Positions 4,288 to 33,517 of a stretch of 33,654 bases of DNA are shown here, piece after piece. Within the stretch, counting starts at the first letter, position 1. The number at the start of each line of letters is the position of its first letter. Under the pieces are notes generated by a model. That model was not told the DNA's origin and did not search any database. It saw only the letters and a list, made by a program, of their open reading frames with translations. The DNA comes from a virus: the IMG/VR virus record IMGVR_UViG_3300044294_000370, positions 1 to 33,654 of that record, one strand, 5' to 3'. Both the position numbers and the translations under genes were made by a program.

Positions 4288-5280
4288 TTAACATACTCCT
4301 GCTATAATATTATCACCTACTCTTCTAAATTGAATAAAAGCGCTGCCACCACCTGCAGCCAATATAATACTAGTTCTTGCGGCACTAGTATTATTTGACC
4401 CACTAACTAAAAAAGGTGATGAACCGTTACTACTAAGAGAACCACAGAACCTTAAAATAGGATTTCCCATTGTTGCTGTGTGCCTAATATATAAATCTAA
4501 TGATAATCCATCTTGGGGCATAGATGCTGTTATTCTAAGCTCCCCACCCCCCGCAAGCTCTCCTATCCAGGCTACACTACCTGTTAAACTAGCATCTACA
4601 TTAATTACCCCTAAACTTGTATAAGTAGCAGTTGCTCTTCTATAATTATTAGCTAGCATGCTTGAAGCTGTTATACCACTTGATGCAGATATTATAGAAG
4701 AAGTTATAGCTCCTGTTGTTACTAAGGTAGTACCAAATAGTCCTGCTGAGGAACTAATAGCACCTGAGGAAGTTATAGCTCCTGTTGTTACTAAGGTAGT
4801 ACCAAATAGTCCTGCTGAGGAACTAATAGCACCTGAGGAAGTTATAGCTCCTGTTGTTACTAAGGTAGTACCAAATAGTCTTGCTGAGGAACTAATAGCA
4901 CCTGAGGAAGTTATAGCTCCTGTTGTTACTAAGGTAGTACCAAATAGTCCTGCTGAGGAACTAATAGCACCTGAGGAAGTTATAGCTCCTGTTGTTACTA
5001 AGGTAGTACCAAATAGTCCTGCTGAGGAACTAATAGCACCTGAGGAAGTTATAGCTCCTGTTGTTATTAAGGTAGTACCAAATAGTCCTGCTGAGGAGCT
5101 AATGGCTCCTGAAGAAGTTATAGCACCATTAGCTATACGAAAAGATCCTGTAAGAGTTAAACTACCACTAATGGTTATATCATAATCTGTTTGTCCTGTT
5201 AAAGCATCTATTGATTGAGTTATATGAGATGCTTGTATAGTTTGACTATTTGATATTCCTGTTTTGCTTAATATTGCCAT
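4288..5280 (-). CDS. repeat-containing tail fibre-like protein
   Basis: 330 residues. After a ~50-residue head with ITISGSLTLTGSFR, six copies of a 23-residue unit follow (core GAITSSGAISSSAGLFGTTL), encoded by 69-bp DNA repeats. The Ser/Gly/Thr/Ile periodicity suggests a trimeric beta-helical shaft. The non-repeated C-terminal ~110 residues look like a compact beta domain (MPQDGLSLDLYIRHTAT, IQFRRVGDNIIAG) and could be the receptor-binding tip. It is last in the tail block, as fibres often are. The minus-strand reading is preferred over an antisense frame because it matches neighbour orientation and composition. Confidence 0.75.
   Translation of the reverse strand: MAILSKTGISNSQTIQASHITQSIDALTGQTDYDITISGSLTLTGSFRIANGAITSSGAISSSAGLFGTTLITTGAITSSGAISSSAGLFGTTLVTTGAITSSGAISSSAGLFGTTLVTTGAITSSGAISSSARLFGTTLVTTGAITSSGAISSSAGLFGTTLVTTGAITSSGAISSSAGLFGTTLVTTGAITSSIISASSGITASSMLANNYRRATATYTSLGVINVDASLTGSVAWIGELAGGGELRITASMPQDGLSLDLYIRHTATMGNPILRFCGSLSSNGSSPFLVSGSNNTSAARTSIILAAGGGSAFIQFRRVGDNIIAGVC
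4703..5116. repeat. six tandem 69-bp repeats
   Basis: Units begin at 4703, 4772, 4841, 4910, 4979 and 5048, and a decayed seventh begins at 5117. Copies are nearly identical, with single-base changes that give Gly to Arg in one unit and Thr to Ile in another. That homogeneity indicates recent expansion or gene conversion. The period is an exact multiple of three, so copy-number change keeps the frame. Confidence 0.92.
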
Positions 5281-5281
5281 A

Positions 5282-6208
5282 TTATCTATCTATATTTATT
5301 AGTATTGTTGTATCTGTTGTTGCTGAAGTTGGAAGAGGTTGAGCGAGTTTACCTATAGCTAATAAATTTTGATTATCGTCATATAATCCTATCGTTGATA
5401 CATATGGAGAAAAATATGAACCTGTAACAAAATTATAAAGAGTACTATCGGTTGAGCCTGATATAATAGAAGGATTTAAACTAAAATTAAATTCATTTTC
5501 TCTTATAGTACATTTGTATTGTGTTTCATATATTGTAAGTGAGGAGTTAAAAGAACAAGTAACAGCAGATGAGGTTACAAAATTAAGTATGTCTGCTGAT
5601 GATCCGCTTGTTATAATTGCTAATCCGTGGTAATAAAATATATTTCCGTATATTGTTGATCCTGATATTAAATTACCCTCTCCGTCATCTATAATAGTAA
5701 AGCTACTTGATTTCCACAAAAAAGAATTGGGTTGGATGTAATTCCCAAATAAACGAGAAGGTATAGATATTACTCCAATAGTAGAGTCGGATGCTGTAGG
5801 AAAATATTTAGGGAATGTTAAATCGGTTTGATTATAATTAAAATATCTTCCTGTTGAAGAAGGTGATCCTACTAAAACATTACCAGTTTCATCTACCCCC
5901 GGATAAATATACCCAATATTAACTGGGTCTCCATAACTTGAAGTACCTCCTAAACTGGAGCTTAGATAGTTTGAGTAATATAATTCTTTAATTGAATTAT
6001 ATACTAAACGTTGGTATCTTGTAGATACTTGTCCTGTAGTTGGGTCTGTTAAAGTATTAAATAATGAACTTGTGTTAAGTCCTAAAAATCTATCTATAGA
6101 GACATTAGATGCAGTTAAAGCTGCTGCCCCTTGAAAAGTAAACGACTTGTTTACTTCAAAAGGAGTAATAACTACATCAGAGGCTAAAAGTTGTTTGTAC
6201 GCACTCAT
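5282..6208 (-). CDS. tail/baseplate structural protein with shared C-terminal domain
   Basis: 308 residues, Ser/Thr/Tyr-rich like the other tail genes. The last ~70 residues (NFSLNPSIISGST ... STIGLYDDNQNLLAIGKLAQPLP) align by eye with the end of the next upstream gene (6214-7233), so the two share a domain through duplication. The GLYND..ELLAVAKLSRP-type ending is, to my recollection, widespread in virion proteins of marine T4-like phages. The exact position in the particle is unknown. It sits 6 nt downstream of its paralog and 2 nt before the fibre gene. Confidence 0.7.
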   Translation of the reverse strand: MSAYKQLLASDVVITPFEVNKSFTFQGAAALTASNVSIDRFLGLNTSSLFNTLTDPTTGQVSTRYQRLVYNSIKELYYSNYLSSSLGGTSSYGDPVNIGYIYPGVDETGNVLVGSPSSTGRYFNYNQTDLTFPKYFPTASDSTIGVISIPSRLFGNYIQPNSFLWKSSSFTIIDDGEGNLISGSTIYGNIFYYHGLAIITSGSSADILNFVTSSAVTCSFNSSLTIYETQYKCTIRENEFNFSLNPSIISGSTDSTLYNFVTGSYFSPYVSTIGLYDDNQNLLAIGKLAQPLPTSATTDTTILINIDR

Positions 6209-17456: not shown

Positions 17457-17863
17457 TATGTGAATGTTATTGATATTTCGTCATTTATACCCGTATTTAC
17501 AATGTTATACGTTAATATAACAGTGGCTTCATATGTATCCGGGTTTCCGGTTACTTCTAAATCTTGAACGAGCACATTTGGAAAAAACGCAGTTAATTGT
17601 GCTTGAATATCTTGTTTTAAAAAATCTAAATTTCCACTTGTAATTTGTTCAAAAACAAAAGCTCTTAAATTGGCACCGAAATTTGAATTTAAATATCTTT
17701 CGGTTTTATTTGTTAAAAAAAAATTTATTAGATTATTTCTAACAGCATCTTTTGTAGTATATGTTGTTTTAAAAACAGCAGGAGCATTAAAAGGAATAGC
17801 TATTCCAACCCCTGTTCCGGGTTTGGTATCTATAGGGAATATTCTTTTTGCTCCGAATGCCAT
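17456..17863 (-). CDS. baseplate wedge protein, T4 gp25-like (GPW_gp25)
   Basis: 135 residues, the same size as T4 gp25. The core AVRNNLINFFLTNKTERYLNSNFG and the following FVFEQI match the gp25/GpW family, which seeds sheath polymerisation and clamps wedge components. The C-terminus ends in a beta hairpin (TVILTYNIVNTG) as in homologs. It is coupled by TAATG overlaps to both the 114-residue gene and the gp6-like gene. Confidence 0.92.
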   Translation of the reverse strand: MAFGAKRIFPIDTKPGTGVGIAIPFNAPAVFKTTYTTKDAVRNNLINFFLTNKTERYLNSNFGANLRAFVFEQITSGNLDFLKQDIQAQLTAFFPNVLVQDLEVTGNPDTYEATVILTYNIVNTGINDEISITFT

Positions 17864-18207
17864 TATTTATTCATTAAGTTCATTATTTGATCTAAACCAA
17901 CACTTCCATCAGGCAATGCTCCGTTTACTGTGTCTGTAGATTTGGGTTGAAATTGGCCGGCGTATGCTGAGGTAGCTACTGTCCCCTGTTGCATTTCTCC
18001 TAATATACCAGAAAACATATTTCTGCGTTCTTGAGCAGTTAATTGTTTTGGTTTTTCAATATAAGGCTGTGCATATGTATCTCTAACAGATTCATTTACG
18101 ATTGTCTTTGGAGAACGAACTGCTTCGAGAAGAATATCCTTAAGTTCTTCTTGGATAGCTTCTCTTACAGCTTCTTTAATGATTTTTTTAAAGTCTTGGG
18201 TTTTCAT
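17863..18207 (-). CDS. small protein with amphipathic N-terminal helix
   Basis: 114 residues. The first ~30 (MKTQDFKKIIKEAVREAIQE...LLEAVRS) form a long charged helix strikingly like the T4 capsid-targeting N-terminus; the rest is flexible with a short C-terminal helix (LDQIMNLMNK). The IKE triplet is at residues 10-12. It sits upstream of and overlaps gp25 by TAATG. Virion packaging, core or chaperone roles are possible; none is shown by a domain. Confidence 0.7.
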   Translation of the reverse strand: MKTQDFKKIIKEAVREAIQEELKDILLEAVRSPKTIVNESVRDTYAQPYIEKPKQLTAQERRNMFSGILGEMQQGTVATSAYAGQFQPKSTDTVNGALPDGSVGLDQIMNLMNK

Positions 18208-21888: not shown

Positions 21889-22563
21889 CTATTGAAAGTT
21901 TATATAGCCGTTTTCTTTATAAAAAAGATAATTATATTTAAATATTTCGTAAAGTTTATTAGATACTTTAGTTATTTTAGGTGTCTTAACATCTATTATC
22001 TCGCGAACGTATATATATAATGCTTTTTTATTAAAAATAGTTAAATGTTCTCTTTTACGAAATAACTCTAAAACAGCATCTGCTATTCTAGCATCTCCTT
22101 CTTTAGGAAAAATTTTATATATATTTTGAGTACAATAATTTATATACTCATCCATAAACACAGATAAATTAGATGATGAAAGATCTAATTCATATGAATG
22201 TTTAGAATCATCATGTATCTCTTCTACAGGAGTAGTTTCTATTCTTTTTTTATAATTTTTTTGATTGTCTAATATTAAATAACGTTTTGCTATAGTTCCA
22301 AAATAAGAATAAGCCTTAGCTCCTTTAGAAGGATCAAATAAATGTATTTTAGATAAAAGAAATATCATTACTTCGTGTTGTAAATCTTCAATATTCTCAA
22401 CTTCAGTATAATAAAATTTAAAAGTATGTACTATATTTTCTGTTAACTTAAAAAAAGCAGGATGAATTTCAGACTCATATATTTTACTCTTAATTGAGGA
22501 ATTAATCTCATTATTATATCGTACAATAGCGTCTTCTGTCTTTTGAGTAAAATATACAGCCAT
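21889..22563 (-). CDS. late sigma factor, T4 gp55-like
   Basis: 224 residues. Residues about 55-105 (VENIEDLQHEVMIFLLSKIHLFDPSKGAKAYSYFGTIAKRYLIL) match region 2 of sigma-70 factors, including the core-binding helix and the aromatic -10 recognition helix (KAYSYFGTIAKRYL). No region 4 is apparent, as in gp55, which reads only a -10-like box. It should redirect host RNA polymerase to late genes such as the adjacent tail block. Coupled by TAATG to the upstream membrane protein. Confidence 0.88.
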   Translation of the reverse strand: MAVYFTQKTEDAIVRYNNEINSSIKSKIYESEIHPAFFKLTENIVHTFKFYYTEVENIEDLQHEVMIFLLSKIHLFDPSKGAKAYSYFGTIAKRYLILDNQKNYKKRIETTPVEEIHDDSKHSYELDLSSSNLSVFMDEYINYCTQNIYKIFPKEGDARIADAVLELFRKREHLTIFNKKALYIYVREIIDVKTPKITKVSNKLYEIFKYNYLFYKENGYINFQ

Positions 22564-26147: not shown

Positions 26148-26933
26148 TCAATTTGCATATTCCATTGCCAACTCAAACAATTCAGAATTAATTTTCATGT
26201 CTTGTTGGAAATTTTTAATTTTGCGAGCTTTACGCAACTTTGTACTTTCAACATTAACATATGTAAAACCACCATTAATCAATTTTTCTTGAATAGTATT
26301 AAAGATATTCCACAATGTTGGGGCTTCATCTTCTTTGCGAGTTGGGCGAAGTAGGTCTTCAAGATCAACTTCTACCATTTCTCCTTTAAAACGAGTTTCA
26401 AGAGCTCTTTTAGCAAAGTCAAGTGCTTGCTCTTGACCCAATTCAACTTGAGCCAAATGGTTCATGGCTTCGATTGTTAATGGAAGTCTTTCAAGCATTT
26501 GTTTAATTGTTTGTTGCAATTCTTCAAACGAATAACCCATATGACGAATACGCATGTTTTCAAAAGTCTGGGTTGATATTACCAATCCGTTAGAGCAAAT
26601 TAATCTAAACAAGCCGGCTGTGAAGGTAAATGAGTTTTTACCATCGTGCGAATTGGTAAGGAGGATTTGTGGATAAACATTATCGCCATTTTCTCCAGTA
26701 ATTTGAATATCATTATTGCGGAAAATAATTAAATGTTTTTGGAACCCAATATCTTTACGGGCTTTAACTTCTTTAGCATCGAAAACTTCCCAGCCCAAAA
26801 GATTCATATCGTTTATGATTTTTTCGGTAGGAATATGGGTGTACTTTTCACTAACCGTCGGTGCGGCTTGCAAGGTGAAAATTGAAGGGGCTTTTGAACG
26901 GATTTCGTTCTTGGTGAGGAATTGGTTTTTCAT
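26148..26933 (-). CDS. DUF932-family phage/plasmid protein
   Basis: 261 residues. The segment LLTNSHDGKNSFTFTAGLFRLICSNGLVI is the hallmark of the DUF932 (PF06067) family, which occurs on phages and plasmids; biochemical function is unknown to me. The remainder is helical and charged (about 135-261). The gene has its own promoter (26962-26993) and terminator (26104-26139), so it is a single-gene unit, probably early and strongly expressed. Confidence 0.82.
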   Translation of the reverse strand: MKNQFLTKNEIRSKAPSIFTLQAAPTVSEKYTHIPTEKIINDMNLLGWEVFDAKEVKARKDIGFQKHLIIFRNNDIQITGENGDNVYPQILLTNSHDGKNSFTFTAGLFRLICSNGLVISTQTFENMRIRHMGYSFEELQQTIKQMLERLPLTIEAMNHLAQVELGQEQALDFAKRALETRFKGEMVEVDLEDLLRPTRKEDEAPTLWNIFNTIQEKLINGGFTYVNVESTKLRKARKIKNFQQDMKINSELFELAMEYAN

Positions 26934-26961
26934 AACTTTTTATTTTTTTTATTTTATGTCG

Positions 26962-26993
26962 GAAATATACTAAAGGGATCCTGTAGAGCCAAA
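26962..26993 (-). promoter_or_regulatory. Bacteroidota-type promoter for the DUF932-like gene
   Basis: The coding strand has -33 TTTG (26993-26990), 20 nt, then -7 TATATTTC (26969-26962). The leader to the ATG is A/T-rich and ends AAAAAGTT. The flanking CATAACTCC block of the right-hand cassettes is absent. Confidence 0.6.
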
Positions 26994-27010
26994 TTTTTTA
27001 GATGACTTTT

Positions 27011-28117
27011 TTATGACGTTGTTTGAATATTTTTACCTGTTTCAATCAATTGTTGTATTTGGCTTTTATTCATTTTTTCTATGACGTCTTTAGCATATTG
27101 TAAAACAATTTCTGCGGGTACTGATAGAGATTTAGGTGATTTATTATCACGAAGATTTTCACAGTATATTCTAGCTTCTTTTATGGCACCCATTTGTTCA
27201 ACAGTCTTTTTTTCTTTTCCAGCGTTACTTAAACCTATTAAATACCCTATAAGAGCATTATATGTGTTTTTTAAATTTTCATCGGTATATGAGAGTTCTG
27301 TTTTATATTTATTTGATAAATTATCTTGAGAGTTAGGTTGAGCTTTTATTCCTCCTAAAGAACCAATTAGGGTAGCTAATCCTACTAATATATTTTTTAT
27401 TTCCCATCCTTCATTTATTTCTTCTTGAGAAGAATACGGTTGTCCTAATTGATTAAATAATGTTGGTATATAAGTTGATGCCATTTCTAAAAAATGCGGG
27501 GTGACTGTTTGTACAACTAAACCAACCGATGTTGCAAATGCTTCTTCATCTATAATAACGATAGGATTATTTTTATCATCAATGTCACCTATTGCTGGCC
27601 AAAAATATTCACCACCTCCATAATCAAATGTTATCCATTCCCCATTAACTATATCAACTCCATTATTTTTGGCAATAGCACGAGTAAGAATTAATCTGGT
27701 TAAATGTGTACATTCATGAGATATTTGCTCTATAACTGCAGGCCAAACCCCATTCTGTTGAGCAGCACCACTTAACCTCATTCCATTGGTCCAAAAGAAT
27801 ATATCTGCTCCACCATTCATTGCATTGCAAAGTCCATATACATAAGCATCGGATGGGGTTTCTTTATATTTTTGAGCATCTTTAAGATTAAGACCTGAAA
27901 ATTTTTCGATATCATTTCCTAATGAAAAAACTCCTGTTGAGTTTGGAGAAAAAGCAAGTGTGAATTCATCTTCAACTTTTCCAATTTCACTATTCCAATC
28001 AATATTAAAATTTATTTTAATAATTTTAGTATTAGTTTTTTCTAAAAGTAAGTTGTTTTCGTTTATTACTTGTCTAATCTCTTTTTTAATAATTTGTTTT
28101 AGTTCTGAGATTCTCAT
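27011..28117 (-). CDS. putative zinc metallopeptidase with capsid-type N-terminal helix
   Basis: 368 residues. H134-E-C-T-H138 is an HExxH zinc site in a helix (VIEQISHECTHLTRLIL). Glu191/Glu192 in IDEEAFATSVGL fit the third ligand and following helix of zincin peptidases. The N-terminal ~22 residues (MRISELKQIIKKEIRQVINE) are a charged amphipathic helix like those of other genes here. The C-terminal ~130 residues are helical with a hydrophobic stretch (NILVGLATLIGSLGG). No signal peptide is present. It may act inside the virion or after injection; the target is unknown. Confidence 0.7.
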   Translation of the reverse strand: MRISELKQIIKKEIRQVINENNLLLEKTNTKIIKINFNIDWNSEIGKVEDEFTLAFSPNSTGVFSLGNDIEKFSGLNLKDAQKYKETPSDAYVYGLCNAMNGGADIFFWTNGMRLSGAAQQNGVWPAVIEQISHECTHLTRLILTRAIAKNNGVDIVNGEWITFDYGGGEYFWPAIGDIDDKNNPIVIIDEEAFATSVGLVVQTVTPHFLEMASTYIPTLFNQLGQPYSSQEEINEGWEIKNILVGLATLIGSLGGIKAQPNSQDNLSNKYKTELSYTDENLKNTYNALIGYLIGLSNAGKEKKTVEQMGAIKEARIYCENLRDNKSPKSLSVPAEIVLQYAKDVIEKMNKSQIQQLIETGKNIQTTS

Positions 28118-28129
28118 TAGGATAATTTA

Positions 28130-28138: not shown

Positions 28139-28244
28139 TTGTATATCCTTTTTTTAATATGTAATATTTTTTTTAAGAGTAAAAATAGGTTCTATGGATT
28201 TTTTAATAAAGTTGCTATATTGAAAATGCTAGTTAATTGTGGGG

Positions 28245-28307
28245 GATATAAGGATATACGTGTCGATAATAAGAGTGGTTGGTTAGATATAAGGATATAC
28301 GCGTCGA
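28245..28307. repeat. pair of 22-bp direct repeats
   Basis: GATATAAGGATATACGTGTCGA at 28245-28266 and the same sequence with one change (C for T) at 28286-28307; centres are 41 bp apart, close to four helical turns. An inverted GGATATAC core lies at 28141-28148. This spacing suits protein binding on one face of the DNA. Confidence 0.8.
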
Positions 28308-28412
28308 GGGTGAGATATAGTTAAGAGTGTAATTTCCATCTAAGCTTTTTTCAGCCACCCCCGGCCGCCGTTATGGACACTAACGCACGTGGTATATTAT
28401 ATAGTATAATAA

Positions 28413-28617: not shown

Positions 28618-28836
28618 TTAATTATTTGTAAAATTCTCATCCTGCATTACATCGATTATATTAAATAAATCCCACAACTCATCTATGTCAGTATGTTTGT
28701 CGTTAATATCTAATTTAGAATTTAACAACCATTTAATAAAACGTAAACGCAATTCGGCTTGCTCTTGGAGATGAGGGTGATTCATCTCAATTAATACATC
28801 ACTCAGGTGGGATTGGATTGCCATTTTAATTGTCAT
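28618..28836 (-). CDS. 72-residue protein, intact copy of a duplicated gene
   Basis: The sequence HLSDVLIEMNHPHLQEQAELRLRFIKWLLN is helical; the C-terminal part is acidic. A second copy of identical length lies at 32080-32298 and is interrupted by a stop. It has its own promoter cassette (28837-28908). No known domain. Confidence 0.7.
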   Translation of the reverse strand: MTIKMAIQSHLSDVLIEMNHPHLQEQAELRLRFIKWLLNSKLDINDKHTDIDELWDLFNIIDVMQDENFTNN

Positions 28837-28908
28837 AACTTTTATTTTTTTTTATTTAGTGTAAATATACGAACAAGGATCATAATCTCCAAATGACGGA
28901 GTTATGAC
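28837..28908 (-). promoter_or_regulatory. promoter cassette 1
   Basis: -33 TTTG at 28893-28890, 20-nt spacer, -7 TATATTTA at 28869-28862, then an A/T leader ending AAAAGTT before the ATG at 28836. The upstream edge is the conserved CATAACTCCGTCATTTGGAG block. Confidence 0.7.
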
Positions 28909-28928
28909 CCTTACTCACACAACAAATA

Positions 28929-29720
28929 CTACATTCTAACGTATATGATCTTGCTATTTGATAATTCAAAATACATTTTCTGTTCAACCATTCCATTTCG
29001 GTTTTTACTAAACATTATGTATGACATTCCACCATCATGTTCTGCTTCACGTCTCATTTCCATCATAGCATCAACCATGTGTTTCAATTTATTTGAACCT
29101 ACAAATACACCGGCTTTAGTAACTTGCTGGATTAGCAAAAATGATGTGTATTTATATTCTTTATTTTCACCTTTATTCTGCTTCATACACAAATCAACTA
29201 ACCATGATTCTGCCATTTTGCGGTCCCAATTATTATCATCTCTAACACCATCAATTATTTCAGCAATACTGTCAATCAAAACTAAATCCCAACCTAAATT
29301 AAGTGATTGCTCAATAACATCTTTGGTATTGTAATCAAGGTAATCTTGAATAAATAATGTTTGAACAATACCGAATTGCTTAAATCGTTCAGTGTATTTA
29401 AACATTTGCTTTTTACCCATTTCACCTGAAATAAATAAGCACTTACGACCTTTGTTTTGAACTGAAGCTAGAATATCTAACAACACTGTTGTTTTACCAA
29501 CACCTGGATCGCCAACACACATAATATTTGTGGCACATGGAATACCACCTTCATGAGAAATAAGTTCATCAACTGCTAAGCCACTTGGCATTGTTTCCAT
29601 CATTTTGCTATCAATATTCAAGCTGTTTAATTTAACAATACTTGAAAAATCAATTAGTGATGGAAGTGGAGCAACATTACTTGCAATTGGATTTTTACGT
29701 GGACGTCCTCTTTGTTTCAT
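28929..29720 (-). CDS. RadA/RecA-like ATPase with N-terminal AT-hook-like motif
   Basis: 263 residues. Walker A is GDPGVGKTT (70-78), and LVLID (146-150) is Walker B. KNRNG at 239-243 corresponds to the RadA-type KNRFG motif. The RecA-core order fits RadA/Sms- or DnaB-like ATPases that process recombination or replication forks. RGRPRKNP (4-11) resembles an AT-hook for minor-groove binding. There is no zinc ribbon or Lon-like domain. It could serve as a helicase or recombination factor with the primase elsewhere in the window. Own cassette at 29721-29792. Confidence 0.82.
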   Translation of the reverse strand: MKQRGRPRKNPIASNVAPLPSLIDFSSIVKLNSLNIDSKMMETMPSGLAVDELISHEGGIPCATNIMCVGDPGVGKTTVLLDILASVQNKGRKCLFISGEMGKKQMFKYTERFKQFGIVQTLFIQDYLDYNTKDVIEQSLNLGWDLVLIDSIAEIIDGVRDDNNWDRKMAESWLVDLCMKQNKGENKEYKYTSFLLIQQVTKAGVFVGSNKLKHMVDAMMEMRREAEHDGGMSYIMFSKNRNGMVEQKMYFELSNSKIIYVRM

Positions 29721-29792
29721 AACTTTTATTTTTTTATTTATGGTATAAATGTACGAACGAAATTTGTGATCTCCAAATGACGGAGTTATGAC
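29721..29792 (-). promoter_or_regulatory. promoter cassette 2 (RadA-like gene)
   Basis: -33 TTTG at 29777-29774, 20 nt, -7 TACATTTA at 29753-29746; the conserved upstream block ends at 29792, 3 nt from the stop of the neighbouring gene. Confidence 0.7.
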
Positions 29793-29794
29793 TC

Positions 29795-30364
29795 TTACTT
29801 ACACTCAATTGCAAACCAAACCGAACGATACAGGCCTTCATATTGTTCATTTTTATTACCATACAACACTCCATCAATTATTGCTACTGCATGACCTTGA
29901 ACTATTAATACAAATCGGCCTACTGGATTGTTTTCCATAAATGATTTAAGAGTATAACCGGTTGGTTTTTTATATTTAGGATTAATTAACATTGGGCGTT
30001 TGATTGTATTTAAGGATGAATTATAGATGTATTTATCATGGTGTAAAGATGGATGAGAGCCTACTAAATCAATCTTGTATCCATTTTTAACTTTACCAAT
30101 AATTAATCCACCAAATGCTACCATCATAGCACCTTGTCTATTTTTACGAAACAATTTCTCTTTAACCCACTCATGCGCTTGATCGTATGAAATATCTAAA
30201 GCACACATAAATGCTCTAACAACACAATCATTGGTTTCCTTTGAAGCCAATTTACTAACTTGTCGTTTGGCTAAGGAACTGGAACATACAAAACGATTGT
30301 CTGAAATCATTTCTCGTTCTTCACCCCACCATGTTTTTGATTTACATGTTACTTGTATTAACAT
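29795..30364 (-). CDS. candidate papain-like cysteine peptidase
   Basis: 189 residues from the ATG at 30364, which sits right after the promoter leader; a longer frame to 30418 would run back through the promoter. ETNDCVVRAF (Cys47) starts the helix expected for the nucleophile. GRFVLIVQGHAVAIIDGVLYGN (His158, then Asp and Asn) is the His-strand of a papain-fold (C39/transglutaminase-like) enzyme. Three basic segments fit a nucleic-acid or protein substrate, but none is shown. Activity is inference from the Cys/His layout. Confidence 0.6.
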   Translation of the reverse strand: MLIQVTCKSKTWWGEEREMISDNRFVCSSSLAKRQVSKLASKETNDCVVRAFMCALDISYDQAHEWVKEKLFRKNRQGAMMVAFGGLIIGKVKNGYKIDLVGSHPSLHHDKYIYNSSLNTIKRPMLINPKYKKPTGYTLKSFMENNPVGRFVLIVQGHAVAIIDGVLYGNKNEQYEGLYRSVWFAIECK

Positions 30365-30434
30365 AACCTTTATTTTTTTATTTGTAGTAAATATACGAAC
30401 GAATTTTACAATCTCCAAATGACGGAGTTATGAC
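30365..30434 (-). promoter_or_regulatory. promoter cassette 3 (cysteine peptidase-like gene)
   Basis: -33 TTTG at 30419-30416, 20 nt, -7 TATATTTA at 30395-30388. The conserved upstream block contains the TAA stop (30430-30428) of the preceding gene. Confidence 0.7.
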
Positions 30435-30712
30435 TCTTCTACTTTTACTATTACAGTTGTTGAGGTAAGTAAATTATGTAGATAAGTTAATAAAAATCCT
30501 TCCTCGTATTTTTCTGTTTTCATTATTTTTCTAATACCTTCTATATTAACAATTTGGTGGAGTTGGTGTAAAGTTAAATCTATAAAAAAGTATTGTTCTT
30601 TAAGACACTTATTTATTAATTCGTAAGTATTAGGATAAATATCTTTTTGATTTTCAATAAGGGTAATAACTTCGGGCTTTAACCGGTCGTAAAGATTAAT
30701 TGCTTTTTTCAT
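30428..30712 (-). CDS. small protein, paralog A
   Basis: 94 residues. The pattern LYDRLKPEV..IENQ..YPNT..L..CLKEQYFFIDLTLHQL..IV matches the 83-residue protein at 31150-31401 position by position, a paralogous pair. No known domain; helical. The stop codon lies within the conserved block of cassette 3. Confidence 0.7.
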   Translation of the reverse strand: MKKAINLYDRLKPEVITLIENQKDIYPNTYELINKCLKEQYFFIDLTLHQLHQIVNIEGIRKIMKTEKYEEGFLLTYLHNLLTSTTVIVKVEES

Positions 30713-30782
30713 AACTTTTATTTTTATTTATGGTGTAAATGTACGAATAAACTTTATGATCTCCAAATGACGGAGTTATGAC
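30713..30782 (-). promoter_or_regulatory. promoter cassette 4
   Basis: -33 TTTG at 30767-30764, 20 nt, -7 TACATTTA at 30743-30736, serving the 94-residue gene. Confidence 0.7.
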
Positions 30783-30882
30783 TTAAATCATTACTAATAG
30801 GAAATGGTATGTTAAGATGAGCATTGTCCGGTTGAGTCTTTGTTTTGAGTTGTTAAATATTGAATGGATAAAAAAGAATTAA

Positions 30883-31137
30883 TTAATAAAACCAGCGCTC
30901 TGTAATTGCATAATTATTTAAGGCCTGCTCCAAACCGGTATAAACTTGGTCGCCAGCTTGCTCTTTTGCAATATTAATTTTCTTATTAAAGTAATCAATA
31001 TAAATTCTAGCACGGTGGAACGAGTTGCTGCGTTTGTACAATACTTTGGCATTCCAATCATAAGCATAGTTGGCCTCACGCTCCAATTCCCCTTCGCTGT
31101 AACGAATTACTTGTTGTATTTTGATTTCTGTGTTCAC
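30883..31137 (-). CDS. small protein, unknown function, GTG start
   Basis: 84 residues from a GTG at 31137; an in-frame stop lies 15 nt further upstream. It begins 12 nt after the stop of paralog B, so is probably co-transcribed with it. Charged and helical with no recognised motif; ends with aromatic residues (TERWFY). Confidence 0.6.
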   Translation of the reverse strand: MNTEIKIQQVIRYSEGELEREANYAYDWNAKVLYKRSNSFHRARIYIDYFNKKINIAKEQAGDQVYTGLEQALNNYAITERWFY

Positions 31138-31149
31138 TATGTGTTTGGT

Positions 31150-31401
31150 TTAGTTATTAAATAATTTATACAAATTGGTAATCAATAAATCATTAATGTA
31201 ATTACATCCATCTATTCCTGCTATTTTTCTTAATTTACTATCTCTGGCTAACCGCACAATATAGTCATATTTTATGTCTCCAAGACAGTAATTAGATTTT
31301 AGTTCCTCTGTAAGTTTAGCAATAGAAAATGGATATAAATTTGCTTGTTCATTAATTATTGCTTTGGCTTCAGGTTTTAATCGTTCAAATAGATTTTGCA
31401 T
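31150..31401 (-). CDS. small protein, paralog B
   Basis: 83 residues. LFERLKPEAKAIINEQANLYPFSIAKLTEELKSNYCLGD aligns with paralog A (30428-30712), sharing the RLKPE, YP and RKI positions. The A-rich leader before its ATG overlaps the end of the 150-residue gene upstream, so the two are co-transcribed without a separate promoter. Confidence 0.7.
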   Translation of the reverse strand: MQNLFERLKPEAKAIINEQANLYPFSIAKLTEELKSNYCLGDIKYDYIVRLARDSKLRKIAGIDGCNYINDLLITNLYKLFNN

Positions 31402-31406
31402 AACTT

Positions 31407-31859
31407 TTATTTTTTTATTTGATGAACTTCATTTAAAAGAGAATAATATTGTTCTTCAGTAATAGATATTGCTTGATTACGACCACAACTTTTGTGAGTA
31501 CCTCTAAATCTAATATTAAAATCTTTAGCATAATATGATTTTGGATTGGGAAATGGAATAAACTCAAATTGCCCTTCTATATTTTCAGGGGTTTTTTCTA
31601 AAGTAGGCCAATTCCTGTTTGTATTATAAAGATCAACAGTAACCTGAGGATTAATACGGGTAGCTATGCCTGCAACTTTATAATCACCTTCTGAGGGTCC
31701 TGTTACTCGGAAAGAAACAATAGCACCTTTTTGGTAGTTTTTTTTTAAGCCTCCTTTACGACGAACAAATTTCCCCGTACGAATTGAATTATCCATATCT
31801 ACCCAACTATTACTATTAAATATAATAAGGTAAAAAGAATTTGTTTTTAGTGGTTTCAT
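31407..31859 (-). CDS. 150-residue basic protein, unknown function
   Basis: A beta-rich N-terminus (NSFYLIIFNSNSWVD), a basic central region (VRRKGGLKKNYQKGAIVSFRV) with mixed beta strands, and an RGTHKSCGRN segment near 120 precede a helical end. The KG..V.F.V segments suggest an SH3-like or RNA/DNA-binding barrel, which is only a guess. Own cassette at 31860-31943. Confidence 0.65.
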   Translation of the reverse strand: MKPLKTNSFYLIIFNSNSWVDMDNSIRTGKFVRRKGGLKKNYQKGAIVSFRVTGPSEGDYKVAGIATRINPQVTVDLYNTNRNWPTLEKTPENIEGQFEFIPFPNPKSYYAKDFNIRFRGTHKSCGRNQAISITEEQYYSLLNEVHQIKK

Positions 31860-31943
31860 AACTTTTATTTTTATTTTTATTTTTTTATTTATGGTGTAAA
31901 TGTACGAACAAACTTTATGATCTCCAAATGACGGAGTTATGAC
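31860..31943 (-). promoter_or_regulatory. promoter cassette 5
   Basis: -33 TTTG at 31928-31925, 20 nt, -7 TACATTTA at 31904-31897. The T-rich leader (A-rich in RNA) is lengthened by extra TATTTTT units compared with the other cassettes. Confidence 0.7.
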
Positions 31944-32066
31944 TTAAGCCATTACTATAAGAATAAACATAGTTACAAACAATGCACTAAAAATAACAAA
32001 TAACATACCTATGAAGTCTTTAGGTGACTCTTTGTAATAATTTTTTAATTCTCGTAATATATTCAT
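31944..32066 (-). CDS. 40-residue membrane protein
   Basis: From the ATG at 32066. A basic start (MNILRELKNYYKESPKDF) and one hydrophobic helix (residues 19-39, IGMLFVIFSALFVTMFILIV). The stop touches the conserved block of cassette 5. It lies downstream of the interrupted gene and would be read from cassette 6. Function unknown. Confidence 0.6.
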   Translation of the reverse strand: MNILRELKNYYKESPKDFIGMLFVIFSALFVTMFILIVMA

Positions 32067-32079
32067 AGTGTTTTTTTAA

Positions 32080-32298
32080 TTATTTAACAAAACATTCTTG
32101 AAGCTCATAATTTACAGATTGAAATGAATTCCACACCTCATCTGTATCTGTTTGCTTATCATCAAAATTTAGGTTTTCCATATTTATCAACCATTTAATA
32201 AAACGCAAACGCAATTATGCTTGCTCTTGGAGTTGAGGATGATTTATTTCAATCAATGTATCACTTAGGTGGGATTGGATTATTGTTCTAATTTTCAT
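32080..32298 (-). pseudogene. duplicate of the 72-residue gene, interrupted by TAA
   Basis: Same length (219 nt) as the intact gene at 28618-28836 and clearly homologous (HLSDTLIEINHPQLQEQA*LRLRFIKWLIN against HLSDVLIEMNHPHLQEQAELRLRFIKWLLN). Codon 28 is TAA where the paralog has GAA; the rest remains open to the natural stop. It still carries a perfect promoter cassette. Sequencing error, recent decay or a truncated N-terminal product are the alternatives. Confidence 0.75.
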
Positions 32299-32368
32299 AA
32301 CTTTTATTTTTATTTATGGTGTAAATGTACGAACAAACTTTATGATCTCCAAATGACGGAGTTATGAC
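32299..32368 (-). promoter_or_regulatory. promoter cassette 6
   Basis: -33 TTTG at 32353-32350, 20 nt, -7 TACATTTA at 32329-32322, in front of the interrupted gene and the 40-residue membrane protein. The block includes the TAA (32364-32362) ending the next upstream gene. Confidence 0.7.
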
Positions 32369-32496
32369 GTTTTATTACTTGGTCTACCTATATTTGTAAT
32401 AGGACGTTTTCCGTTTGGAATACGGGGTAAATTTTTCAATTGAAGTTTTTTACCTTTAAGGTAATTTGTCTTAGAAATAAGTTTTAATGATGGCAT
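32362..32496 (-). CDS. 44-residue very basic protein
   Basis: From the ATG at 32496: MPSLKLISKTNYLKGKKLQL... rich in Lys/Arg with an end NIGRPSNKTS. Its stop is the TAA inside the conserved CATAACTCC block of cassette 6. The charge suggests nucleic-acid or ribosome binding, but no motif is recognised. It is preceded by cassette 7. Confidence 0.55.
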   Translation of the reverse strand: MPSLKLISKTNYLKGKKLQLKNLPRIPNGKRPITNIGRPSNKTS

Positions 32497-32577
32497 TATT
32501 TTTATTTTTTATTTATGGTGTAAATATACGAACAAGATTTGTGATTTCTAAGCATTTAATATGACGGGGTTATGACG
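32497..32577 (-). promoter_or_regulatory. promoter cassette 7, divergent -33 region
   Basis: -7 TATATTTA at 32528-32521 and the leader are intact, but 20 nt further upstream the coding strand has CTTA instead of TTTG, and about 9 extra bases separate it from a CATAACCCCGTCAT block (to 32577). Either weak or regulated differently. Confidence 0.5.
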
Positions 32578-32839
32578 TTTTATGCATTTAAATCATGTAT
32601 GACACGATTATGACAGATATATCTTTTCGATAAATATGGTTGGGGGTGAGGGGAATTTTGGTTACCTTCCACTCCCCCCCACTAACCCACTCAATCGTTT
32701 CTTTCCATTTGCTCTACTTCAATTAGACATCCCTCTACCCTTTCCTCTATTTCTCTCCACCCATTTGTCTACTATATTGAGACAATTGTCTATCATATTG
32801 AGATGTCTACTATATTGAGACATTTTAGTTGTTTTATTT
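32578..32839. other. 262-bp gene-free region with pyrimidine-rich strand and TGTCT/AGACA sites
   Basis: No supported gene. From about 32650 to 32762 the plus strand is strongly C/T-rich, and at 32766-32822 three operator-like repeats follow. The region lies between the end of the 48-residue gene and cassette 7. Confidence 0.5.
32766..32822. repeat. three operator-like repeats TGTCTayyATATTGAGA
   Basis: Copies at 32766-32784, 32787-32805 and 32804-32822. The outer two are identical (TGTCTACTATATTGAGACA), with 5-bp inverted arms TGTCT/AGACA; the middle has TATCATATTGAGATG. Start spacing is 21 and 17 bp. Likely a repressor or replication-protein binding cluster. Confidence 0.75.
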
Positions 32840-32986
32840 TTACCTCACCTCAGTAATTGTTCCTGTAATAACATGATTACCATATCGTTCCTTAATTCGT
32901 TGAGCTGCTTCATTAGTTGACCAAGCATGAATTTCATCCACACGTTGTGCTCCACGATCATTGAAATTAACTTTGTATTTTTTCAT
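32840..32986 (-). CDS. 48-residue basic protein, unknown function
   Basis: From the ATG at 32986: MKKYKVNFNDRGAQRVDEIHAW, then STNEAAQRIKERYG and HVITGTITEVR. A beta-alpha-beta layout with basic ends. It loosely resembles the core of the 82-residue protein at 33197-33445 (KYKI..VWEYEVEATSEEEAVE), so both may belong to one small fold family. Part of a run with the membrane protein upstream. Confidence 0.6.
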   Translation of the reverse strand: MKKYKVNFNDRGAQRVDEIHAWSTNEAAQRIKERYGNHVITGTITEVR

Positions 32987-33007
32987 TGTTTTGTTTTGTT
33001 TAATGTT

Positions 33008-33181
33008 TTATTTAATGTTATTAGTTCTATTTGTTATCCATATACAATACATTCCGGTAATTGCCATCAATGTTAGTGCTTTTAGTTCACAATCAGTTAC
33101 ATAATTTAGGATTAATTGCATTGTAATTGCAAATACTATGATCGATATTAGTTCGAATAGTCTGGGGTTTATTGATTTCAT
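33008..33181 (-). CDS. 57-residue two-helix membrane protein
   Basis: From the ATG at 33181. Two hydrophobic stretches (LFELISIIVFAITMQLIL and ALTLMAITGMYCIWIT) flank a short polar turn (NYVTDCELK). Only an A-rich leader separates it from the 82-residue gene, so it is likely on that transcript. Function unknown. Confidence 0.6.
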   Translation of the reverse strand: MKSINPRLFELISIIVFAITMQLILNYVTDCELKALTLMAITGMYCIWITNRTNNIK

Positions 33182-33196
33182 TGCTATTTTATTTTG

Positions 33197-33445
33197 TTAT
33201 CTTATTAGTTGTATTTCCATTTCAGTTTCATCGTTGTTAGAGTCAATATAAAACTTGGAAGGTTCTATTTCTCCATTGCATGCTTTTTCAACTGCTTCTT
33301 CTTCAGATGTGGCTTCAACTTCATATTCCCATACTTGGGTTGCAGATATTGATTGTGTTATTTTATATTTTTTTAATGTAGCACTATAATTATCTTCTGT
33401 GGTTACAATGTGCCAATACTCGGGGTGTGGATTTGTGTTTTTCAT
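33197..33445 (-). CDS. 82-residue acidic protein, unknown function
   Basis: Contains KYKITQSISATQVWEYEVEATSEEEAVEKACNGE, a strand-strand-helix pattern (VEA.SEEEAVE..) seen in many small phage proteins of unknown role. The C-terminus is acidic (NNDETEMEIQLIR). Own cassette at 33446-33517. Confidence 0.65.
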   Translation of the reverse strand: MKNTNPHPEYWHIVTTEDNYSATLKKYKITQSISATQVWEYEVEATSEEEAVEKACNGEIEPSKFYIDSNNDETEMEIQLIR

Positions 33446-33517
33446 AACTTTTATTTTTTTATTTATGGTGTAAATATACGAATAGATTTTATGATTTCCA
33501 AATGACGGAGTTATGAC
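33446..33517 (-). promoter_or_regulatory. promoter cassette 8
   Basis: -33 TTTG at 33502-33499, 20 nt, -7 TATATTTA at 33478-33471, then an A/T leader to the ATG at 33445. Confidence 0.7.

Follow-up and report, generated by a model that had tools for sequence, protein, structure and literature searches.

Dispersed predicted promoter cassettes with a phased GTCAT repeat in a probable Bacteroidota myophage

Near-identical predicted promoter units of about 70 letters precede many small genes of the phage represented by a 33,654-bp virus record (the window, i.e. the whole stretch of DNA analysed here), in which the large genes all lie on the − strand. The DNA of these cassettes seems to double as an on-switch and a swap joint, since predicted promoters precede the genes and rearrangements between the window and its sister phages end there. 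We propose, with a probability of roughly two in three, that the cassettes are self-contained start units forming one regulon, whose repeats recombine so that genes can be swapped and yet keep a promoter. The window very probably belongs to a myophage of Bacteroidota, because its baseplate protein shares 47% identity with its counterpart in the cultured Flavobacterium phage immuto, the record of which names T4-like gp20 and gp23; the capsid genes lie outside the window. When the window was compared with annotated phages at the DNA level, only tRNA matches were returned.

Anatomy of the cassettes

Seven cassettes on the − strand have GTCATAACTCCGTCATTTGGA…TTCGTAyATTTA and an A/T leader in common (Table 1). 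A previous sequence-only reading of this DNA had listed eight cassettes, each directly upstream of an ATG. All eight are there, and each listed end is exactly the base immediately 5′ of an ATG on the − strand, but the count has to be extended: a search of the window for further copies yielded a ninth, diverged cassette before the DUF932 gene as well as a leader remnant before the 83-aa gene. The reported motif (TTTG, exactly 20 nt and TA(C/T)ATTTA) was seen in seven copies, with the 32497 cassette as the exception; TTTG is present in 7/8 of the listed copies and in 8/9 when the DUF932 cassette is counted. Over a 47-nt core, the pairwise identity of the seven cassettes is 83–100% (mean 90%), with 35 of 47 positions invariant. 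Their similarity does run through the spacer and the leader, as had been claimed: the 20-nt spacer is 79% identical compared with 29% expected at random, and the leader, which is 23–37 nt long, unstructured and without a Shine–Dalgarno site, is common to the copies. The 22-mer CTCCAAATGACGGAGTTATGAC (up to three mismatches) occurs seven times, on one strand, compared with zero occurrences of the reversed control.

The most conserved stretch, GTCATAACTCCGTCATTTGGA, lies upstream of the −33 box and overlaps it, and contains two GTCAT repeats that are 11 bp apart. The pair GTCAT-N6-GTCAT has 14 matches in the window (at most one mismatch), compared with 1.7 expected. A weaker third repeat, ATCAT, accompanies the pair in several copies. 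The stop codons of the 368-, 94- and 44-aa genes fall inside the GTCATAA of the downstream cassette and that of a 40-aa membrane ORF (31944–32066) abuts it; most cassettes are therefore the gap between one stop and the next start. The genes behind the cassettes had been described as small, which is true of many of them, but they include a 263-aa RecA/KaiC-like ATPase and, behind the 32299 cassette, one decayed duplicate.

Both boxes resemble the Bacteroidota −33 and −7 types. The −7 box of the primary sigma factor of Flavobacterium psychrophilum is TAnnTTTG at −12 to −5 (PMC9723704). The match that had been called clear is good for TTTG, but the −7 box of the cassettes (TAyATTTA) ends in A and not G; they further differ from the Flavobacterium promoter in their fixed 20-nt spacing, in the GTCAT repeats and in the TTCG preceding the −7 box. 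We found nothing direct in the literature on promoter cassettes of Bacteroidota phages. The window also encodes a protein with a sigma-70 region 2 (21889–22563), for which other records have weaker matches. On the model of T4 gp55, this protein might act on late genes, with the host-type cassettes left for the non-structural module.

Table 1. Cassettes and associated features of the window
Feature	Position	Strand	Remark
Cassette before 82-aa gene (33197–33445)	33446–33517	−	Derived arrangement
Second GTCAT pair near the 32497 cassette	32599–32614		
Diverged cassette before 44-aa gene (32362–32496)	32497–32576	−	−7 box and leader kept, without TTTG; GTCATAACCCCGTCAT in common arrangement, 37 nt before TATATTTA
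Cassette before decayed duplicate of 72-aa gene	32299–32368	−	GTCATAA gives the upstream 44-aa gene its stop
Decayed duplicate of 72-aa gene	32080–32298	−	In-frame stop at about codon 24
Cassette before 150-aa gene	31860–31943	−	Core same as in the 32299 cassette; long leader (37 nt)
150-aa gene	31407–31859	−	Missing here in sister L008; stop codon within the next leader
Leader remnant AAATAAAAAAATAAAAGTT (19 nt) before 83-aa gene	31402–31420	−	Without promoter; the 150-aa gene indel ends here on one side
Cassette before 94-aa gene (30428–30712)	30713–30782	−	
Cassette before 189-aa gene (29795–30364)	30365–30434	−	GTCATAA gives the upstream 94-aa gene its stop
Cassette before RecA/KaiC-like ATPase gene (28929–29720)	29721–29792	−	
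Cassette before 72-aa gene (28618–28836)	28837–28908	−	
Segment with 368-aa gene	27018–28125	−	Missing in sister L111; one junction is the first base of a GTCAT element
Ninth, diverged cassette before DUF932 gene (26148–26933)	26934–27017	−	GTCATAA gives the upstream 368-aa gene its stop; common arrangement, GTCAT-N6-GTCAT-N8-TTTG-N20-TATATTTC

The GTCAT pair across related phages

A scan of viral contigs with GTCAT-N6-GTCAT-N8-TTTG-N20-TAyATTTA returned 14 stretches, and scans of whole records found 19 copies in G001 (148.6 kb), 15 in G006 and seven each in G008 and G009, with 0–1 in the controls. Among 12 records, the gap between the two repeats is 6 in 55 cases, all of them (55/55) on the coding strand, and every other gap up to 20 occurs 0–2 times. 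If one-base variants are included, the same records hold 71 pairs: in 53, to which the two diverged window copies (32497 and DUF932) belong, the distance from the second GTCAT to the −7 box (TAyATT) is exactly 37 bp, and in eight it is 28 bp. For most of the remaining pairs there is no TAyATT close enough (G003 and G010; the box in G010 reads TATCTTT). The consensus of 54 promoters is aacGTCATA-nnanc-GTCATA-nnAAAna-TTTGGC-…-TTCGTATATTnA, and if the −7 box is given the Flavobacterium position of −12 to −5 (PMC9723704), the repeats fall at about −60 and −49. The GTCAT pair defines a dispersed predicted promoter throughout this family of phages.

Neither immuto (complete, 160 kb) nor eight of the nine other long relatives compared, which are of the same family and reach 171 kb, contain the pair, the ninth having a single chance-like match (ten records in all). 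Immuto has a cassette sequence of its own, GTTGC…TATATTTAGgTATCAATAATTAAAAC, before about 18 small genes, at about 63–77 kb of MW353175, and some of these cassettes have a terminator-like hairpin in the spacer. Judging from these sequences, the wider phage family uses the same cassette strategy with other sequences. A strict scan of 85,000 prokaryote genomes matched two contigs, one of which (L111) is a misbinned phage relative with the same ATPase and DUF932 genes, and the other of which is chance-like; the site therefore belongs to phages, and a host regulon of this exact form is rejected. In a tree of the ATPase gene, the sequences with GTCAT do not form one clade (three changes, at least two of them forced by supported branches), which suggests that the element goes with the genome and not with the gene, although the sampling is thin.

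The seven window copies depart from the common arrangement. In them, 39 and 28 bp separate the repeats from the −7 box, and GTCATTTG merges a repeat with the −33 box. The common arrangement is found at the orthologous ATPase genes of G008 and G009 and at the homologues of the 72-aa gene in these two records, as well as in the DUF932 and 32497 cassettes of the window. The derived one is common to the sisters L008 and L111, and G010 has one similar site. The simplest reading of these sequences is that one rearranged cassette spread within the lineage of the window.

Copying of cassettes and exchange of genes

The 31860 and 32299 cassettes have identical cores and the 30713 core is one base off, yet the genes behind them are unrelated; conversely, the gene duplicates at 28836 and 32298 have cassettes that are less alike than these. 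We compared 177 cassettes from 16 phages. The similarity is 0.53 for cassettes of unrelated genes in the same phage, 0.43 for those of homologous genes in different phages and 0.39 for the unrelated background, and the nearest neighbour of a cassette is in the same phage in 110 of 177 cases, compared with 12.8 expected. The comparison supports cassettes having been copied apart from their genes, although selection by a common regulator could explain part of the similarity within a genome. The sequence-only reading had a promoter-plus-leader unit copied in front of new genes. The identical cores before unrelated genes support the copying, but the unit starts farther upstream, at the GTCAT repeats, and the account has to be widened, as cassettes also travel with genes and act as junctions of indels and of reordering.

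Three rearrangements with respect to L008 and L111 end in cassettes, namely two gene indels and one change of gene order. L008 and the window are 99% identical, but the 150-aa gene is an addition in the window, with both ends in leaders. L111 lacks the 368-aa gene, the junction being position 27017 of the window, the first base of a GTCAT. The 189-aa gene is upstream of the ATPase gene in the window and L008 and downstream of it in L111, with a cassette at every joint (1–526, 443–1167 and 1080–1865 of L111 match 29354–28829, 30438–29715 and 28919–28126 of the window, respectively). In addition, the 72-aa gene was duplicated along with its cassette; the homology begins at GTCAT and amounts to 81% over the cassette and gene. 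The 94- and 83-aa genes are also paralogues, at about 30%. It should be noted that the region is compact and cassettes are nearly all of the intergenic DNA of the module, so that junctions within them are expected to some degree even without repeat-driven recombination.

Mechanism, alternatives and known systems

The anatomy of the cassettes, their fixed spacing, the copies and the endpoints of the rearrangements can be read directly from the DNA; we infer from them promoter activity, a binding factor with an activating role and recombination as the cause of the gene exchanges. Each cassette would be a self-contained transcription start unit between the stop of one gene and the ATG of the next. 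A transcription factor, probably phage-borne, would bind the two GTCAT repeats, which at 11 bp are on one face of the helix, and adjoin the RNA polymerase; the −33/−7 promoter would be read by the host primary sigma factor; and the third part, 3′ of the promoter, would be the A/T leader without a Shine–Dalgarno site. With the same unit before many small genes, these would form one regulon with a promoter for each gene. Because homologous repeats would recombine with each other, cassettes could be copied and homogenised within a genome, and the genes between two cassettes could be lost, gained, duplicated or moved with a promoter retained.

Searches for the regulator gave no candidate. OmpR/PhoB-type winged-helix domains (PF00486) were found in none of ten records, which are mostly fragments, the control genomes being positive, and the regulator may be a host protein; nor was an HTH_3 domain found in ten records, again mostly fragments. 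A search for the C-terminal domain of MotA (MotCF) gave no match, with an uninformative control. Among the genes conserved in phages with GTCAT, mostly fragments, and absent from immuto, there was no convincing small or DNA-binding protein.

Could the cassettes be alike simply because they are strong promoters, drawn together without any copying by selection for the host sigma factor and one common regulator? The positions of the boxes and repeats are strongly constrained in all phages with GTCAT, and selection alone can maintain such constraint. Yet the spacer (79%) and the leader are also common to the copies, as is the rearranged upstream part of the seven window copies, which is missing in most sister phages, and two identical cores with a third one base off precede unrelated genes while the cassettes of gene duplicates are less alike. 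We therefore regard convergence as quite improbable, and the earlier preference for homologous modules is well supported. A miniature mobile element that inserts beside genes and carries a promoter by chance is scarcely credible: its expected near-identical copies in intergenic gaps are there, but the cassettes have no inverted repeat at their ends, keep a single orientation, always end at an ATG and enclose three upstream stops inside GTCATAA.

Alternatively, a phage repressor might use the repeats as operators and silence the regulon, much as temperate phages do. Each of the seven derived copies has its inner repeat overlapping the −33 box, so that a protein bound there would stand in the way of the polymerase, and, no regulator having been found, either sign of regulation would fit. 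We nevertheless find a repressor unlikely: the repeats of the common arrangement, at about −60 and −49, stay clear of the core promoter and occupy a position typical for activators, 19 and 15 copies are spread over a large gene region, and no repressor or integrase gene was noticed within the window. PeSL cassettes of T4-type phages were reportedly described by Arbiol et al. in 2010 and Comeau et al. in 2014. A strict PeSL, with a promoter and a terminator stem-loop, would have a CTCCG/TGGAG hairpin ending the upstream transcript. Several cassettes have such a hairpin by prediction, 5 bp long and of about −5.6 kcal/mol, longer ones are predicted before the 189-aa and 72-aa genes, and other family members have strong spacer hairpins. 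It is, however, weakened in the 33446 copy and gone from the 32497 and 26934 copies, all of which keep GTCAT, and a terminator scan gave none at the cassettes. We consider a strict PeSL very unlikely; a terminator role of the CTCC/GGAG hairpin was rejected, as there is no T-run and some copies lack it.

To return to the recombining start units proposed above, mobile regulatory cassettes of the PeSL kind are known from T4-type phages (PMC4503421). The two systems appear alike in having dispersed host-type promoter cassettes in plastic small-gene regions of a large myophage that are shuffling joints between close relatives. In the window, a host-type promoter is present as a sequence match (TTTG-N20-TAyATTTA, seven copies), and three events have shuffling breakpoints in cassettes. 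The window cassettes differ in having an upstream phased direct repeat and no terminator stem-loop, in their Bacteroidota-type promoter and in a conserved unit that extends to the start codon. Since the only hairpin is weak and absent from some copies, we class them not as PeSL but as mobile promoter cassettes of a new variety, judged by their predicted architecture.

T4 middle promoters (MotA/AsiA) are also numerous, dispersed and built from a host sigma box and a short phage-specific motif; there the MotA box takes the place of the −35 element, around −30 (PMC2988021), whereas the window keeps both host-type boxes and has its motif upstream, at about −60 to −45. Cluster O mycobacteriophages have more than 30 near-invariant 17-bp repeats, many in short intergenic gaps, and their gene indels are attributed to recombination between dispersed repeats (PMC4351075). 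Those repeats are palindromic and also occur within genes, unlike GTCAT, which is directly repeated, keeps to one orientation and stands at a constant distance from the boxes. The SAS/ESAS of Cluster K mycobacteriophages resemble a ribosome site and are tied to translation starts (PMC3203893). They share with GTCAT that they are phage-specific repeats, lie in front of start codons in a subset of non-structural genes and are nearly absent from host genomes, but GTCAT is a predicted upstream promoter element.

These findings bear on how phages keep gaining small genes and yet express them at once. Promoter cassettes as swap joints were already known in T4-type phages, and the same logic now appears in phages related to immuto; what is new here is a different architecture, a predicted regulatory site that is sharply delimited and open to testing, and rearrangements seen between sister phages that are nearly identical. 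The GTCAT site offers a handle with which to find the regulator and to call genes and operons in these poorly annotated phages. More tentatively, it may represent a novel type of activator site, with GTCAT repeats phased by 11 bp at about −60/−49, through which a Bacteroidota phage family would run a regulon encoded by the phages; the cassettes would be the joints by which new small genes are wired in, and lineages would swap the upstream site and re-homogenise their copies.

Leaders and hairpins of the promoter cassettes

The leaders of the seven derived cassettes, the predicted promoter units that share a rearranged upstream part, finish in A(A/G)GTT-ATG or a similar sequence. They carry a G at position -3, whereas the favoured base at this position in Flavobacterium johnsoniae is an A (PMC6847099). 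In the related phage records L042 and L047, and at positions 5665 and 7949 of the cultured Flavobacterium phage immuto (L106), a terminator-like hairpin (for example GGCTCC..GGAGCC) occupies the spacer that separates the -33 box from the -7 box, which makes the promoter overlap with the terminator.

Motifs and repeats

An LKQIIKKEI stretch is found at the N-terminus of the 368-aa protein, with similar stretches in the proteins at 632-988 and 17863-18207; it is possibly a common targeting or assembly tag. The two motifs of the 189-aa protein are reminiscent of papain-like cysteine peptidases. The TGTCTCAATATAGTAGACA tandem is located upstream of the cassette preceding the 44-aa gene, and the GACGCGTATATCCTTATATC repeats, which adjoin a CGTACGTACGTACG run, differ in copy number between the window and the sister phage L008.

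Features of the window
Feature	Position	Strand	Description
Fibre-like protein	4288-5280	-	~6 near-perfect repeats of TGAITSSGAISSSAGLFGTTLV
224-aa protein	21889-22563	-	sigma-70 region 2 match
368-aa protein	27011-28117	-	HECTH motif, zinc-peptidase-like
GACGCGTATATCCTTATATC repeats	28240-28310 (L008: 3210-3320)		gene-free stretch
189-aa protein (phrog_3754)	29795-30364	-	NDCVVRAF and GHAVAI stretches
TGTCTCAATATAGTAGACA	32762-32825	- (reading)	imperfect palindrome, three near copies in tandem

Possible host and sigma-like protein

The close relative L111 (DOMR01000029.1) is a contig within a Chitinophagaceae MAG; it is probably misbinned, or else hints at the host. The match of the 224-aa protein to sigma-70 region 2 passes Pfam's threshold, with an E-value of 5.6e-6; the related phages G001, G010 and G014-G016 show weaker ones. 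This protein is a possible phage late sigma factor resembling T4 gp55.
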